From Catellatospora paridis (GTDB lineage Bacteria; Actinomycetota; Actinomycetes; Mycobacteriales; Micromonosporaceae), in assembly GCF_009720365.1 (NCBI RefSeq), contig NZ_WBZD01000021.1:186001-250000 (forward strand): 64,000 bases of DNA, written 5' to 3'. Position 1 is the first letter of the stretch, and each line of letters starts with the position of its first letter. Shown here piece after piece: positions 4,592 through 37,484 of this stretch. A program made the translations under genes and the position numbers. Under the pieces are notes generated by a model. The model searched no databases and had not been told where the DNA came from. It saw only the letters and a list, made by a program, of their open reading frames with translations.

Positions 4592-5440
4592 TCAGGTCAG
4601 TCCCTGCGCGGCCAGGGTCTGGCGCAGGTGCTGCAGGCAGCGGGCGAGCAGGCGGGACACGTGCATCTGGGACAGGCCGAGCCGCTGGGCGATCTCGGCC
4701 TGGGTCAGGTCGGCGGCGAAGCGCAGCGCCAGGATGTGCCGGTCGCGGGGCGACAGCCCGGCCACCGCGCGTCCGATGGCGTGGCGATCGGGCAGCGACT
4801 CCAGCCGCCGGTCCTGCTCGCCGAGCAGCTCGCCCAGTTCGGCGAAGCCGCTGCCGCTGCGCACCACGCTGTTGAGCGAGCCGATGGCATACGCATGCGC
4901 GCATTCCAGCCCGTCCCGGATGTCGTTCTCGTCCCGGCCCAGGAACGTGGCCAGGTCGCCGATGTCGGGGGTGCGCTGCAGGGACTGGCACAGCTGCGGC
5001 ACCGCTCGGCTGATCTCCAGGTGCAGTTCCTGCAGGTGGCGGTGCACTCGCAGCGCCCAGCCGCGGTCGCGGAAGTGCCGGCGCAGCTCGCCGAGCATGG
5101 TCGGGGCGGCGAAGTGTTCGAACCGGACGCCGTGGCTGCTGTCGTAGCGGTCCACCGACTTGATCAGCCCCAGCAGCGCGACCTGGACCAGGTCGTCGGG
5201 GTCCTCGCCGCGGAAGCTGAACCGCCGGGCCAGCCGCCGGGCCAGCGGCATGCCGGCGCGGATGACGGCGGCCCGGGCCCGCTCCCGTGCGGGGTCGTCC
5301 GCCGGGATGCGGTGCAGCCTGGCCAGCGCCACCGACACGCGGCGGTCGCGCTCGGCGGTCCACGCCTCACCGGCGAGCTCCGTGGAGCCCAGCACGGCAT
5401 CGATCCTCAACGCGTCCGCATGGGTGCTCATCGCCGCCAT
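4592..5440 (-). CDS. RNA polymerase sigma factor, SigB/SigF/SigG type
   Basis: Stress or developmental sigma-70 factor lacking region 1.1. Region 2 is visible as DPDDLVQVALLGLIKSVDRYD followed by FAAPTMLGELRRHFRD, region 3 follows, and region 4 ends with LTQAEIAQRLGLSQMHVSRLLARCL, a helix-turn-helix. This is the SigB/F/G family of actinobacteria. The start is uncertain: ATG at 5440 or 5430 is preferred because the residues encoded upstream to a GTG at 5485 look non-coding and its GAAGG sits only 3 nt away. No anti-sigma gene of the RsbW type is adjacent. It lies convergent to the debranching gene. Confidence 0.88.
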   Translation of the reverse strand: MAAMSTHADALRIDAVLGSTELAGEAWTAERDRRVSVALARLHRIPADDPARERARAAVIRAGMPLARRLARRFSFRGEDPDDLVQVALLGLIKSVDRYDSSHGVRFEHFAAPTMLGELRRHFRDRGWALRVHRHLQELHLEISRAVPQLCQSLQRTPDIGDLATFLGRDENDIRDGLECAHAYAIGSLNSVVRSGSGFAELGELLGEQDRRLESLPDRHAIGRAVAGLSPRDRHILALRFAADLTQAEIAQRLGLSQMHVSRLLARCLQHLRQTLAAQGLT

Positions 5441-33964: not shown

Positions 33965-35280
33965 GTCGACCCTCGGCTGATACGCCCGAGGTCTGCAGGC
34001 CCGGGCACCGGCGGGCGGGGTCGTGGTCCCGCCGACGTCGGGCGACACCGCGGGCGGTGGCGCGGCTGGAACCGTCGCTGGCCGACGGCCTCGGGGCGCA
34101 GCCTGCGGGTGTCGCGCAGCGTCCGCGGCGGCGCTGGCTCGCCCGGGCGCTGCCGTTCGCCGCGACGTCGTTGCTGGCAGGGACGCTCGTCCTGCTGCTG
34201 ATGGCACTGGCCGCCTGCGCCGGGCCGCAGCCGGGTCCGGCCACCGGACCCGGTGCGACCCCGTCGCCTTCCCACGACGCCGGGTCGGCCCCCGGCACCA
34301 CGACCACGACGGGCAGCCCGCACGCGAACACGGCGGCCGCGCCGAGCAGCGCTCCAGGCCGGTCTCCTGCCCGGGCCGCGGACGCCTGCCCGCCTGCCAC
34401 GGTGGCCGTCGGTGACGCCTCCGCGCTGGCCACCGCCCTGTCGCGGGCCGAGCCCGGCGACAGCATCAGGCTCAAGGACGGGGTGTACGAGGGCCGCTTC
34501 GCCGTCACCACCCCCGGCACCGCCGGAAAGCCCGTGCATCTGTGCGGTGGCCCCGGCGCGGTCCTCGACGGCGGGGGCACCGGCCACGGGTACGCCCTGC
34601 ACCTCGAAGGCGCAGATCACTGGCGGCTGACCGGGTTCACGGTCCGCAACGGGCAGAAGGGCGTCATGCTCGACCGCACCAGCCACGCCGTGCTCACCGG
34701 CCTGACCGTGGAACACGTCGGCGACGAGGCGATCCACCTGCGCGCCAACAGCACCGACAACGTGGTGCAGCACAGCACCGTGCGCGACACCGGGCTGCGG
34801 CGGGCGAAGTTCGGCGAGGGCGTTTACATCGGTACCGCGACGAGCAACTGGTGCGACGTCACCGCCTGCGAGCCCGACCGCAGCGACCGCAACGTGATCC
34901 GCGGCAACCGGATCAGCGCCGTGACCGCCGAGCCCGTCGACGTCAAGGAGGGCACCACCGGCGGGATCGTCGAGGGCAACACGTTCGACGGCGCGGCCAT
35001 GACCGGCTCGTACGCCGACTCGTGGGTGGACGTGAAGGGCAACGGCTGGCTGATCCGCGGCAACACCGGCCGGCATTCGCGCGGTGACGGCTTCCAGACC
35101 CACCGGGTGGCCGACGGCTGGGGCGACCGCAACGTGTTCACCCGCAACACCGCCGCCGTCGACGGCCCCGGCTGGGGCTTCCACCTCGCGCCCGTCGCCG
35201 CGAACATCGTCGCCTGCGACAACACCGTCACGGGCGCTACGAAAGGCCTGGCCAACACGGCCTGCCGCCGGACATGGTGA
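33961..35280 (+). CDS. Right-handed beta-helix lipoprotein (polysaccharide lyase/epimerase-like)
   Basis: 439 residues. A basic N-terminal tail is followed by a hydrophobic segment ending LLLMALAACAG, lipobox-like though unusually far (about 80 residues) from the start. A Ser/Thr/Pro linker and a beta-helix domain (about 145-435) follow, beginning VAVGDASALATALSRAEPGD and containing GGIVEGNTFDGAAMTGSYAD. The opening resembles pectate-lyase/chondroitinase-B-like proteins. GTG 33961 overlaps the previous stop (GTGA), so synthase and two beta-helix genes form one operon. The catalytic residues are not identified. Confidence 0.82.
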   Translation: MSRPSADTPEVCRPGHRRAGSWSRRRRATPRAVARLEPSLADGLGAQPAGVAQRPRRRWLARALPFAATSLLAGTLVLLLMALAACAGPQPGPATGPGATPSPSHDAGSAPGTTTTTGSPHANTAAAPSSAPGRSPARAADACPPATVAVGDASALATALSRAEPGDSIRLKDGVYEGRFAVTTPGTAGKPVHLCGGPGAVLDGGGTGHGYALHLEGADHWRLTGFTVRNGQKGVMLDRTSHAVLTGLTVEHVGDEAIHLRANSTDNVVQHSTVRDTGLRRAKFGEGVYIGTATSNWCDVTACEPDRSDRNVIRGNRISAVTAEPVDVKEGTTGGIVEGNTFDGAAMTGSYADSWVDVKGNGWLIRGNTGRHSRGDGFQTHRVADGWGDRNVFTRNTAAVDGPGWGFHLAPVAANIVACDNTVTGATKGLANTACRRTW

Positions 35281-35281
35281 A

Positions 35282-35308
35282 GCCCGGGGGAGTGTCCTTC
35301 CCCCGGGC
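35282..35308 (+). terminator. GC-rich hairpin after beta-helix operon
   Basis: GCCCGGGGGA (35282-35291) and TCCCCCGGGC (35299-35308) form a 10-bp stem with a 7-nt loop, starting two bases after the stop. It may also stop minus-strand transcription from the noncoding RNA pair. Confidence 0.85.
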
Positions 35309-35347
35309 CTCGGAGTGCCGCCGAATTGCACACACCAGCACGTTTAA

Positions 35348-35455
35348 GCGGACGGGTCAGCATGAAGACCCCGTGTCTCTGCCGTTTGGACTACCGCACC
35401 AGGAAGAGGTGCGGGCCGGGCTCGAACCGGCACCCCGGGGGTTTCGCCCGTACGC
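35348..35455 (-). ncRNA. Y RNA-like, tRNA-mimicking RNA 2 (YrlA-type architecture)
   Basis: Read on the minus strand: 5' basal strand GCGTACGGG (35455-35447), short strands GAA and ACCCC (35445-35438), a T-arm GCCGG-TTCGAGC-CCGGC (35431-35415), CCGCACC (35414-35408), 7-nt loop UCUUCCU, GGTGCGG (35400-35394), TA, a D-arm with GG (35391-35375), then GGGGT, TTC and basal strand CCCGTCCGC (35356-35348). The 7-bp acceptor-like stem is perfect and the basal helix has one mismatch. The T-arm precedes the acceptor stem, so a normal tRNA is excluded. The topology equals that of bacterial YrlA Y RNAs. The exact ends are estimates. Confidence 0.75.
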
Positions 35456-35477
35456 GGTCGATCTGGTGATCGGCGGC

Positions 35478-35613
35478 GAATGCTGAGTCTGGAGCGAGAA
35501 TCTGAGATTGATCGCGGCTGCCTCTGCCATGTTGGGCTACCCCCGCAGGTGGTGCGGGGGGTGGGACTCGAACCCACACTGTGACCGCGTTGTTCAGCTT
35601 CGACTTCAGCTTC
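35478..35613 (-). ncRNA. Y RNA-like, tRNA-mimicking RNA 1 (YrlA-type architecture)
   Basis: Minus strand, 5' to 3': basal strands GAAGCTGAAGTC (35613-35602) and GAAGCTGA (35601-35594), closing strand CGCGGT (35589-35584), T-arm GTGGG-TTCGAGT-CCCAC (35577-35561), CCCCCGC (35560-35554), 7-nt loop ACCACCU, GCGGGGG (35546-35540), TA, a D-arm with GG and 3-bp stem GCC/GGC (35537-35520), closing strand GCCGCG (35518-35513), then TCAGATTC (35505-35498) and GACTCAGCATTC (35489-35478). The acceptor-like stem is perfect over 7 bp and the closing helix over 6 bp. The loop happens to read ACCA. Topology as in YrlA RNAs; ends are estimates. Confidence 0.75.
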
Positions 35614-35631
35614 AGCTTGCGCTTCCGCGCC

Positions 35632-35649
35632 CCCCGCCCTCCGGCGGGG
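35632..35649 (-). terminator. Hairpin between the 243-aa gene and the RNA pair
   Basis: CCCCGCC and GGCGGGG arms (7 bp, 4-nt loop) begin 10 bases after the stop of the upstream protein gene on the minus strand and end about 20 bases before RNA 1. It may terminate the mRNA, or mark a processing point if the RNAs are co-transcribed. Confidence 0.55.
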
Positions 35650-35659
35650 AGTTCATGGG

Positions 35660-36391
35660 TCAGGCGAACAGGTAACCGAAGACCCGGTCGCCGACGTGCT
35701 TGTCGACCGCCTCGGCGTTGTTGGCCTCCTCGCGGGCGAACTTGACCGCCTGCTGCAGCTTCTCCACCCGCTCCAGCAGCGTCGACACCCGCTTGGCCGG
35801 CAGCGCCCCGGAGAACTTCACCGTGGTCCAGTAGCCCACCGCGATGTCCTCGTAGTACACCTCGACCTGCGCCGGGTGCTTCTCGGTCGCCTCGGCCTTG
35901 ACGTGGTTGCGGGGCACCTTCTTGGTGCGGATGGTGCGCACCGGCTCCGTCGACCAGCAGTCCGCGGAGTCACTGAACACCCACGACTCGGCGGCGTCCA
36001 GCACCGGCAGCTTCTTGACGAAGGTGTGCAGGTCGGTGAGCTGCTTCTCCAGGAACAGCAGGTAGGTCACCGGCACGTCGGACAGCAGCACCCGGTCGTC
36101 GACCGTCACGTCGGCGCGTGCCACGCAGTTGGTCGAGTCCTTGGTCGCGGTCACGTCGAACAGCCGGGTCAGCGTCGTGCCGATCTGGCGCAGCACGTCC
36201 TCGGCGCGGGTCTGCACCTTCGTGGACTCCGGCGGCAGCTGCTCGCCCTCCTCGTCCTTGGCCTGATACGTCCGCGAGATGCCCGACAGCAGCGCCGGCT
36301 TCTGCACGGCGTGGTGGGCCTCGGTCAGGTCCTGGAACGAGCGGCTCTTGATGCCCTTCTCGACCGCGATGATCTGGTTCAGCTTCGCCAT
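35660..36391 (-). CDS. Unrecognised 243-aa protein next to Y RNA-like genes
   Basis: Soluble protein without signal peptide or membrane helix; I cannot place it in a family by eye. The N-terminus is helical (MAKLNQIIAVEKGIKSRSFQ, DLTEAHHAVQKPALLSGISR), the middle mixed alpha/beta (VPVTYLLFLEKQLTDLHTFV), and a predicted coiled coil lies near 205-230 (LLERVEKLQQAVKFAREEAN). Codon use is less extreme, with more Lys than its neighbours. GGGAGGAACACTTC precedes ATG 36391, a strong site. It is not a TROVE/Ro60 protein. Position just upstream of the two tRNA-mimic RNAs, same strand, suggests a functional link. Confidence 0.8.
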   Translation of the reverse strand: MAKLNQIIAVEKGIKSRSFQDLTEAHHAVQKPALLSGISRTYQAKDEEGEQLPPESTKVQTRAEDVLRQIGTTLTRLFDVTATKDSTNCVARADVTVDDRVLLSDVPVTYLLFLEKQLTDLHTFVKKLPVLDAAESWVFSDSADCWSTEPVRTIRTKKVPRNHVKAEATEKHPAQVEVYYEDIAVGYWTTVKFSGALPAKRVSTLLERVEKLQQAVKFAREEANNAEAVDKHVGDRVFGYLFA

Positions 36392-36413
36392 GAAGTGTTC
36401 CTCCCGACGGGTG

Positions 36414-36443
36414 ACGCTAGAGGATCACCCATGCGGGCGGCAA
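36414..36443 (-). promoter_or_regulatory. Candidate promoter for the 243-aa gene
   Basis: On the minus strand TTGCCG (36443-36438), an 18-base spacer, and TAGCGT (36419-36414) resemble a sigma-70 promoter, about 25 bases before the ATG. An inverted repeat GGGTGA/TCACCC (36409-36414 and 36425-36430) overlaps it and could be an operator. Confidence 0.4.
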
Positions 36444-36482
36444 TCCGGATTCCCGCCGCCGGAACTCTGTTGATCAAGTACG

Positions 36483-37484
36483 GTGAACTCCTGGCGGAGT
36501 CGGGGGTGGTCGGCCGTGGTGATCGGCTTTGCGATGCTGGCCACCGGGTTCGTCTTCGTCTGCGGCGCCAACGACGGCGCGGCCCTGCTCGCCCTGGCCT
36601 TGCGCCAGCGGGAACTGCCGCTCTACGGAGTGCTGGCCGTGCTGCTCGCCGCGATCATCGCCGGTCCCGCACTGTTCGGCCTGGCCGTCGCGCACACCTT
36701 CACCGACCGCCTGGTCAACGCAAGCGGCGTCCGCGGACCCCTGGTCGTGCTCGCCGGGGTCGGCGTGGCCCTGGCCCTCGTGCTCACCCTGGCCTGGCGA
36801 GGCGTGCCGACCAGCGTCACCCTCGCGGTCCTCGGCGGACTCGCCGGGGTCGGCGCCGGGCTCGGCGTGCCGCCCGCCTGGTCCACGCTGGCCGTCGTGC
36901 TCGCCGTCGCCGCGCTCGCGCCCCTGCTCGGCGGCGGCCTCGGCTACCTGCTGGGCCTGGCCGCCCGCCGGCTGCCGACCACCGCGCGGCTGCCCCGCGC
37001 GATGCGGTACGCGCATGTCACCGCGTTCGCCGGGCAGAGCCTGGCCTATGCCGCCAACGACGGGCAGAAGATGTTCGCCGTGGTCGGCGTCGCTCTCGGC
37101 GTCGCCCACCGGGCCCCCGGCATGCAGGCCCCGCCGCTGCTGCTGCTCTGCGCGACGGCGGCGGTGTTCGCGGCCGGGGCGGTGCTGAGCCTGCGGCGCA
37201 TGGCCCAGGGCGTGACCGGCGGGCTCACCCCGCAGCGTCCGTGGACGCTGGTCACCGCCGGGCTCGCCTCGGCCACCGCCGTGTTCGGCAGCGCCGGCAT
37301 GGGCGTGCCCGTCAGCATGACCCAGTCCGCCACCGCGGGCCTGGTCGGCGCGGGAGCCAGCACCGGCGTACGCCGCATCCGCTGGCAGTTCGCCACCCCG
37401 GTGCTGACCGCCTGGCTGGTCACCGTCCCCGCGAGCCTCGCCCTGGGCTACGCCGCGGGCCTGGCCCTGCGGAGCACGCTGTGA
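36483..37484 (+). CDS. PiT-family inorganic phosphate transporter
   Basis: 333-residue PHO4/PiT permease with about nine or ten helices and the two inverted family signatures: FVFVCGANDGAALLALAL near the N-terminus and SLAYAANDGQKMFAV in the second half, plus PVSMTQSATAGLVGAG. Both GANDG/AANDG aspartates that bind cation and phosphate are present. The GTG at 36483 has no good ribosome site; GTG at 36516 is an alternative. It is followed after 25 bases by a DUF47/PhoU-like gene, the usual partner. Confidence 0.9.
   Translation: MNSWRSRGWSAVVIGFAMLATGFVFVCGANDGAALLALALRQRELPLYGVLAVLLAAIIAGPALFGLAVAHTFTDRLVNASGVRGPLVVLAGVGVALALVLTLAWRGVPTSVTLAVLGGLAGVGAGLGVPPAWSTLAVVLAVAALAPLLGGGLGYLLGLAARRLPTTARLPRAMRYAHVTAFAGQSLAYAANDGQKMFAVVGVALGVAHRAPGMQAPPLLLLCATAAVFAAGAVLSLRRMAQGVTGGLTPQRPWTLVTAGLASATAVFGSAGMGVPVSMTQSATAGLVGAGASTGVRRIRWQFATPVLTAWLVTVPASLALGYAAGLALRSTL

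Follow-up and report, generated by a model that had tools for sequence, protein, structure and literature searches.

The window, as we call the whole 64,000-nucleotide stretch of DNA analysed here, carries on its minus strand a gene for a DUF7873 protein and, starting 39 nt past its stop codon, a structured RNA with a core of 304 nt (35620-35317). This RNA contains two modules in which the arms of a tRNA are circularly permuted (T-arm, capped acceptor helix, TA, D-arm); each module sits on a separate basal helix, and its anticodon end is open. The features of the locus are the following:

35660..36391, minus strand: DUF7873 (PF25283) protein, 243 aa; Pfam E 1.7e-119 over profile positions 1-242 of 244
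35619..35650, minus strand: pair of small hairpins separating DUF7873 from the RNA core, a possible 5' region; minimum-energy and centroid folds, similar ones recognised by eye in some relatives
35479..35620, minus strand: domain 1, basal helix P1a/P1b with tRNA-like module 1; model R2 at 137.3 bits (the window sequence being a training member), fold z -3.55, covariation
35513..35589, minus strand: anticodon-stem-like helix of module 1, 35589-35584 with 35518-35513; fold, swap test in 60 loci
35520..35577, minus strand: tRNA-like module 1; sequence, with T-arm, acceptor and D-arm cells paired at 98.9-100%
35560-35553/35547-35540, minus strand: acceptor-like helix of module 1, loop 35552-35548, which starts CCA
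35317..35479, minus strand: domain 2, P2a/P2b with tRNA-like module 2; model R1 at 144.2 bits, E 6.7e-36 (the window sequence again a training member), covariation
35477-35463 with 35338-35317, and 35455-35447 with 35357-35349, minus strand: basal helices P2a and P2b
35375..35431, minus strand: tRNA-like module 2; sequence, with helix cells paired at 97-100%
35414-35408/35400-35394, minus strand: acceptor-like helix of module 2, loop 35407-35401, D-arm 35391-35375
35279..35311, minus strand: terminal hairpin, 13 bp with the 7-nt loop AGGACAC; hairpin search in relatives

The adjoining segment 30585-35280 resembles a polysaccharide locus; two plus-strand reading frames run toward the RNA, one glycosyltransferase-like (recognised by eye), the other encoding a right-handed beta-helix protein that matches Beta_helix and NosD.

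Read on the minus strand, the T-arm of module 1 is GTGGG-TTCGAGT-CCCAC (35577-35561), followed by the acceptor-like helix CCCCCGCA / loop CCACC / TGCGGGGG (35560-35540), which comprises either 8 bp closed by a loop of 5 nt or, as in the original prediction, 7 bp with 7 nt, and then by TA and a D-arm with GG (35537-35520). The same order is found in module 2, with the T-arm GCCGG-TTCGAGC-CCGGC (35431-35415), the acceptor-like helix CCGCACC / TCTTCCT / GGTGCGG (35414-35394), TA and the D-arm at 35391-35375. The original prediction had placed two such modules in tandem on the minus strand and had proposed for them a tRNA-mimicking RNA with the permuted topology of the YrlA type; the tandem modules are borne out by the sequence and by covariation in relatives, and the topology by compensatory changes. 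The linear tRNA, which the prediction had set against this fold, did not appear: ARAGORN over the window found no tRNA and no tmRNA. Rfam at gathering thresholds gave no match over the window, and scanning of 35200-36600 for a sigma-70-type promoter and a U-tailed terminator found none.

Single-sequence folds recovered the T-arms, the capped acceptor helices, the basal helices and, in module 1, the CGCGGT/GCCGCG stem; the D-arms of the two modules and, in module 2, the ACCCC/GGGGT stem were missed, other local pairs being preferred. The 401-nt region folded into two small hairpins, domains 1 and 2 on long interrupted basal helices and the terminal hairpin, with a stability z-score of -3.68 (0/100 shuffles equally stable). 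None of the 200 shuffles was as stable as domain 1, and the z-score of domain 2 alone was moderate only (-1.84; 8/200 shuffles equally stable). Against chance, conservation with covariation is a stronger case than the stability of the folds.

Covariation in homologues, proposed earlier as a check, was found in both domains. In a plain MAFFT alignment of 28 sequences of domain 2 (30 pairs), 95.5% of cells were paired, both sides had changed in 28/30 pairs, and the covariation score was 0.717 compared to 0.224 +/- 0.014 for shuffled and 0.13-0.15 for slid partners. For domain 1 (39 sequences, 35 pairs) the values were 83.1% of cells paired, both-side changes in 25 pairs and a score of 0.364 vs 0.154 shuffled and 0.06-0.17 slid; its T-arm, acceptor and D-arm were paired at 99-100% and its basal helices at 74-79%. 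Among viral and phage loci outside training, domain 2 scored 0.894 vs 0.219 shuffled (97.0% of cells paired) and domain 1 scored 0.593 vs 0.173 (84.8%), in alignments that were fitted to the model and are so biased toward it, that include three rows from the other head of the same RNA, and in which L139 and L200 are near-repeats of training rows. The capped acceptor helix was complementary in 98.9-100% of cells, with both-side changes at all 7 pairs; P2a/P2b were paired in 87-98% of cells and P1 more weakly, in 68-79%. The D-arm pairing is backed by the relatives' alignments, though absent from single-sequence folds. The anticodon-like stem of module 1 aligned poorly (39-57% of cells paired in the MAFFT set, 48-84% in the non-training viral and phage set), and both such stems were assessed by an alignment-free test, in which partners were exchanged between 60 loci: own partners scored 14.9 vs 10.1 +/- 0.5 for swapped ones in module 1 and 13.3 vs 9.6 +/- 0.5 in module 2, with 0/200 swaps as high in either case. 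The pairing of the module flanks, which had also been predicted, holds in the folds for CGCGGT/GCCGCG and the basal helices, fails there for ACCCC/GGGGT, and is favoured for both anticodon-like stems by the swap test.

The DUF7873 protein of the window scored 398.4 bits against a Pfam cut-off of 27; it is the single match in its genome (8.97 Mb, 99.81% complete), and its nearest named relatives belong to Catellatospora. Its AlphaFold2 model, calculated from 79 sequences, had a pLDDT of 93.5 and a pTM of 0.77. Foldseek against PDB and the viral library BFVD returned no match at E <= 1e-3, neither to Ro60 nor to an RNA-binding fold; by sequence, PDB had one DUF7873 match only (E 0.96). Pfam gave no TROVE match on this protein and PHROGs no match at all; in PHROGs, of six phage copies one matched at E 0.0018 and one at 0.094, both to families of unknown function, and one phage DUF7873 protein had a YicC-like match (E 9e-4) under the Pfam cut-off. 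The most constant residues in 87 aligned sequences include P129, K158, T169, H172, P173, A174, Q175, R220 and N224. The protein has a pI of 6.3 and is not basic overall, so that RNA binding would need a local basic patch rather than overall charge. Literature searching retrieved no paper on DUF7873 and, among the matches listed, no title on a twin tRNA-mimic RNA; an earlier description elsewhere is possible. It should be added that the viral locus L153 (4001-4726) has a DUF7873 copy with an internal stop codon in the matched range.

DUF7873 loci were gathered from four sources, genomes, named genomes, viral contigs and phage records, with some genomes occurring in two of them. A script search detected two or more modules after DUF7873 in 23/29, 59/80, 33/78 and 5/8 loci of the four sources, one module in 65/195 loci and none in 10/195. 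Pairs were accepted at a T-arm spacing of 110 to 175 nt, and in 118 loci the T-arm-to-T-arm distance minus the first loop was 134-152 nt, most commonly 142 (18 loci); with this near-constant spacing, the two heads look like one unit. In these paired loci the first T-arm begins 54-230 nt past the DUF7873 stop on the same strand, apart from five exceptions at 307-506.

The terminal hairpin was searched by its loop, N-G-G-[ACT]-[CT]-A-[CTA] (commonest CGGATAT and AGGCTAC). It was present in 36 of 60 non-redundant loci, mostly with 10-14 bp and a 7-nt loop, and absent from 24; mononucleotide shuffling left it in 0.5 of the 60 on average and never in more than 3. The loop lies at a median of 97 nt past the acceptor helix of module 2. 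Acceptor loops started with N-CCA in 24/60 loci for module 1 and 23/60 for module 2, above the expectation from base composition; the loops of the other 36 and 37 loci lacked CCA, and loop lengths ranged from 4 to 72 nt. An isotype-origin comparison placed the module 1 D-arm nearest to tRNA-Leu in 4/10 phage loci. Single ARAGORN tRNA calls occurred in 21/80 bacterial loci, and of the 20 listed among these 21 calls, 18 were miscalls on module 1, often as tRNA-Phe(gaa). In the Streptomyces loci L051, L057, L066, L067, L071, L073 and others, ARAGORN reads module 1 as a linear tRNA, in most near 4759-4858, and such stretches may be mis-annotated as tRNAs in Streptomyces.

In a set of 61 related genomes, an R1 match lay beside DUF7873 in 24/24 genomes that have this protein, at E 2.8e-13 or better in 23 of them and as a partial match at 1.6e-10 in G311. 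The best R1 match in the 37 genomes without DUF7873 (1.2e-11) was partial and about 0.8 kb from a TROVE match, and by score alone it beats that of G311. Matches at E <= 1e-3 occurred in 16 of these 37; of five checked for TROVE, G324 and G308 had it and G314, G307 and G343 did not. A phylum sample of 296 genomes, which shares the window's genome and a few others with the first set, was searched with R1 to E 1e-8: its six DUF7873-positive genomes were exactly those with R1 at E 5.5e-15 or better. Partial matches, none better than 2.2e-10, turned up in five DUF7873-negative genomes of this sample; in two of these a match lay about 1.2 kb or less from TROVE, and the other three (G027, G153, G238) have no TROVE. 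R1 reached at least 95 bits in 79 of 80 named genome loci, 8 of the 80 being training rows, and 42 bits in the remaining one (L045); the RNA-DUF7873 pair was present in 11/11 genomes searched of the window's genus. Five genomes belonging to a single genus had a second partial R1 match, scoring about 50 bits and similar in length, at a distance from both DUF7873 and TROVE (G023:C1:2941492, G193:C1:2539365, G128:C1:6523105, G161:C27:126414, G182:C22:15116).

No further protein was widely shared around the pair: among the families listed, none besides DUF7873 and overlapping frames occurred in more than two of 16 diverse genome loci, and no protein besides DUF7873 in more than eight of 74 non-duplicate viral loci. 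In locus L171 the RNA is upstream of DUF7873, separated from it by a T-run and a hairpin with the loop motif, and in L170 it is on the strand opposite DUF7873; these arrangements indicate that the RNA is more than a trailing part or 3' UTR of the DUF7873 transcript. We regard it as almost certain that DUF7873 and the twin-headed RNA form a conserved two-part unit.

DUF7873 was found in 73 phage records, among them Arthrobacter phage Mimi, Gordonia phages GodonK and Fryberger, Rhodococcus phage NiceHouse, Rhizobium phage RHph_TM30, Vibrio phage K479, Klebsiella jumbo phages and Pseudanabaena phage Pam2; the 60 records listed either label the match a hypothetical protein or carry no annotation. 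R1 or R2 reached at least 50 bits in 80 of 88 viral and phage loci (57/65 of those outside training) and in 6 of 8 named phages, RHph_TM30 and K479 being without a match. ARAGORN called tRNAs in 47 of the 88 loci, three or more in 31, with a total of 394 calls or 0.535 per kb, uncertain calls counted. In 4 of 8 phage records examined (Mimi, GodonK, NiceHouse, RHph_TM30) an annotated tRNA array surrounds the DUF7873 gene, and 409-533 nt after this gene are free of annotation on its strand; Pam2 had no tRNA within the stretch viewed, and KpLz-2_45 just two, about 3.3 kb off. The pair occurs in many soil bacteria and in large phages, often near phage tRNA genes. The viral loci L126, L149, L181 and L198 have a small protein in common, which by its motif may be a von Willebrand A domain, a domain type also present in Ro60.

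To our knowledge, bacterial Y RNAs have been described only with Ro60. A profile search found no TROVE (Ro60) match in the window's genome. TROVE matches, covering part of the profile only, were present in 19 of 29 DUF7873-positive genomes, never at the DUF7873 locus, and absent from ten, the window's own included. A weaker R1 match lay within about 2.2 kb of TROVE in 14 of 15 TROVE-positive genomes of the 61-genome set (the exception being G303), usually confined to T-arm, acceptor and D-arm; four genomes of the phylum set with both TROVE and DUF7873 had no R1 match at E <= 1e-8 near TROVE. In G313, a Y-like RNA 32 nt upstream of the TROVE gene scored 39.6 bits with YrlA and 50.6 bits with R1. 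Ro60-like proteins with partial TROVE profile matches and Y-like RNAs nearby were observed at this locus (L230, G313:C2:2762543-2764191) and at other TROVE loci, and Y-like RNAs of this kind may be overlooked by the Rfam YrlA threshold. Sister genomes carry apparent Ro60-Y RNA loci and, separately, DUF7873 with the twin-headed RNA.

A permissive Rfam scan of 35250-35720 gave YrlA matches of 34.1 bits (E 9e-6), the best in this genome, and 17.9 bits (E 0.44). The YrlA model, suggested earlier as a check, therefore does match here, but under the RF02553 gathering score of 69; the TROVE-adjacent RNA of G313 also has only 39.6 bits, which makes the cut-off a weak test in these bacteria. The YrlA score was dropped as proof, since tandem tRNA arrays yield false scores of up to 30.5 bits with YrlA and 39.4 bits with R1 (L229), and YrlA was matched at E <= 10 in 13/14 control genomes. 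Matches in G314 and G341, considered as further Y RNAs, were also dropped, both being inside tRNA arrays. These arrays (L229, G314:C1:8165000-8176000; L231, G341:C1:8926000-8936000) are dense and belong to actinobacterial chromosomes; L229 packs more than 25 tRNA matches into 11 kb and is accompanied by an Lsr2 match and by one to Phage_zn_bind_8 that falls just short of the Pfam cut-off.

The YrlA of Ro60/Rsr systems (RF02553; 6CU1) likewise has a permuted T-arm, closed acceptor-like helix and D-arm on a basal stem, hides the anticodon and displays elbow and acceptor helix; 6CU1 reportedly superposes on tRNA by circular permutation (PMC11472068). It differs in its partner, which is Ro60, whereas the fixed neighbour of the window RNA is DUF7873, and apparently in size, with one head in a reported 90-150 nt (PMC8394870), whereas the window RNA, under the Rfam threshold, shows two heads at near-fixed spacing in a contiguous unit of about 300 nt and a terminal hairpin. 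Judged by its predicted anatomy, the twin-headed RNA is YrlA-like, but it is not a YrlA as defined by Ro60. The claim of two Y RNAs, understood as RNAs of Ro60, is not supported: the genome lacks TROVE, the spacing of the modules is near constant, the unit goes with DUF7873, and the Ro60-like proteins and Y-like RNAs of sister genomes are at other loci.

Two further phage systems invite comparison. Some jumbo phages are reported to encode a TROVE protein proposed to form a platform with a tRNA-like RNA (PMC7824862), which resembles the present pairing of a phage-borne protein with a tRNA mimic; DUF7873 differs in having no TROVE match in Pfam and no fold match, and is unmentioned in the excerpt of that source. 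GOLLD and ROOL, found in phages and prophages and frequently close to tRNA islands, are likewise large and structured and of unknown function, but are described in PMC12286853 as RNA-only cages with no known protein partner, and Rfam scans of the window matched neither.

By analogy with Ro60-Y RNA, DUF7873 and the RNA may form one ribonucleoprotein that works in the same manner with a different protein, its heads recruiting a tRNA enzyme; we give this reading, the likeliest of those considered, a little less than an even chance. DUF7873, probably an unrelated protein, would take the place of Ro60 and bind the basal helices or the terminal hairpin. Each head would present the tRNA elbow and acceptor helix without an anticodon loop, the parts that many tRNA-binding enzymes reportedly read (PMC4810234). 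The heads could so bring a tRNA-handling enzyme to the side of DUF7873, for example PNPase, RNase P, or an enzyme of tRNA modification or RNA repair, much as YrlA reportedly tethers PNPase to Ro60 (PMC8394870); the same source reports that YrlA is modified by DusA and TruB. Two heads might recruit the same enzyme twice or a different one each, and in phages the particle would serve tRNA or another structured RNA during infection; its retention near phage tRNA genes fits handling or protecting tRNA at that time. Four findings count against this ribonucleoprotein: DUF7873 is not basic overall, its model gave no structural match to Ro60 or an RNA-binding fold at E <= 1e-3, the neighbour comparison of genome and viral loci showed no RNA-repair or nuclease gene conserved beside DUF7873, and eight viral loci (L132, L133, L156, L175, L176, L180, L203, L204) lack a 50-bit match to R1 or R2.

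The chief rival is a decoy, in which the heads would soak up or block an enzyme that attacks or modifies tRNA, such as a host defence nuclease or toxin, with DUF7873 stabilising or displaying it and bacteria having kept or captured a phage cassette. The many viral copies near tRNA genes, inside an array in half of the phage records examined, speak for it, as do the proposal that phage tRNAs counter host tRNA nucleases (PMC10264068) and the suggestion that YrlA is a competitive inhibitor of an anticodon nuclease (PMC7790460). Heads without an anticodon loop would nevertheless suit anticodon nucleases poorly, and the presence of the pair in every genome searched of the window's genus is unlike a phage-only counter-defence, so that a decoy appears unlikely, if worth keeping in mind. 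The regular position of the first T-arm shortly past the DUF7873 stop would be expected if the RNA acted in cis, as a structured UTR (5' or 3') promoting maturation or stability of the DUF7873 mRNA or of tRNA transcripts nearby, for instance through RNase P cleavage at the mimics; this is improbable given the RNA on the opposite strand in L170, the upstream RNA with hairpin and T-run in L171, and two heads at fixed spacing, which exceed the needs of a processing site.

In permuted two-piece tmRNA the 3' half precedes the 5' half in gene order, and the order in our modules is alike. Permuted tRNA or tmRNA-like genes, whose capped acceptor helices would be opened by RNase P and 3' processing into chargeable, CCA-ended two-piece RNAs, could also explain why N-CCA starts exceed base composition, in module 1 of the window too. 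CCA is however missing from the majority of loci and the loops vary widely in length; no coding piece for a tag was seen, there are two heads, the anticodon end opens into a basal helix instead of a loop, and ARAGORN finds neither tRNA nor tmRNA in the window, all of which makes such genes quite improbable. Drifted ordinary YrlA working with Ro60 would account for the head topology, for the genome's best YrlA score and for TROVE in most DUF7873-positive genomes; as TROVE is absent from this genome and nine others, and TROVE-adjacent Y-like RNAs occupy other loci, we consider it very improbable. Tandem tRNAs or their remnants, with the T-arm of one beside the D-arm of the next, do produce false R1 and YrlA scores in L229, but the window has no tRNAs, and the near-complete complementarity of the capped acceptor helix with changes on both sides at every pair refutes this artefact, to which we attach practically no probability.

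Returning to the ribonucleoprotein, it may represent a second, independent Ro60-Y-like class, composed of the new-fold DUF7873 and a twin-headed tRNA mimic in actinobacteria, at least one Ktedonobacterales genome and tRNA-rich phages, with two elbows held at a fixed distance that would dock on a dimeric tRNA enzyme or on two ribosomal tRNA sites; this we put forward tentatively, as somewhat short of an even chance. Y RNA-like tRNA mimics are known, and what is new is DUF7873 as the putative protein partner. If true, a tRNA-mimic RNA with another protein would mean that the Y RNA design originated, or changed its partner, on more than one occasion. For DUF7873, the link to the twin-headed RNA offers a function to look for, and the pair is a new part in the tRNA arrays of phages, the purpose of which is debated.
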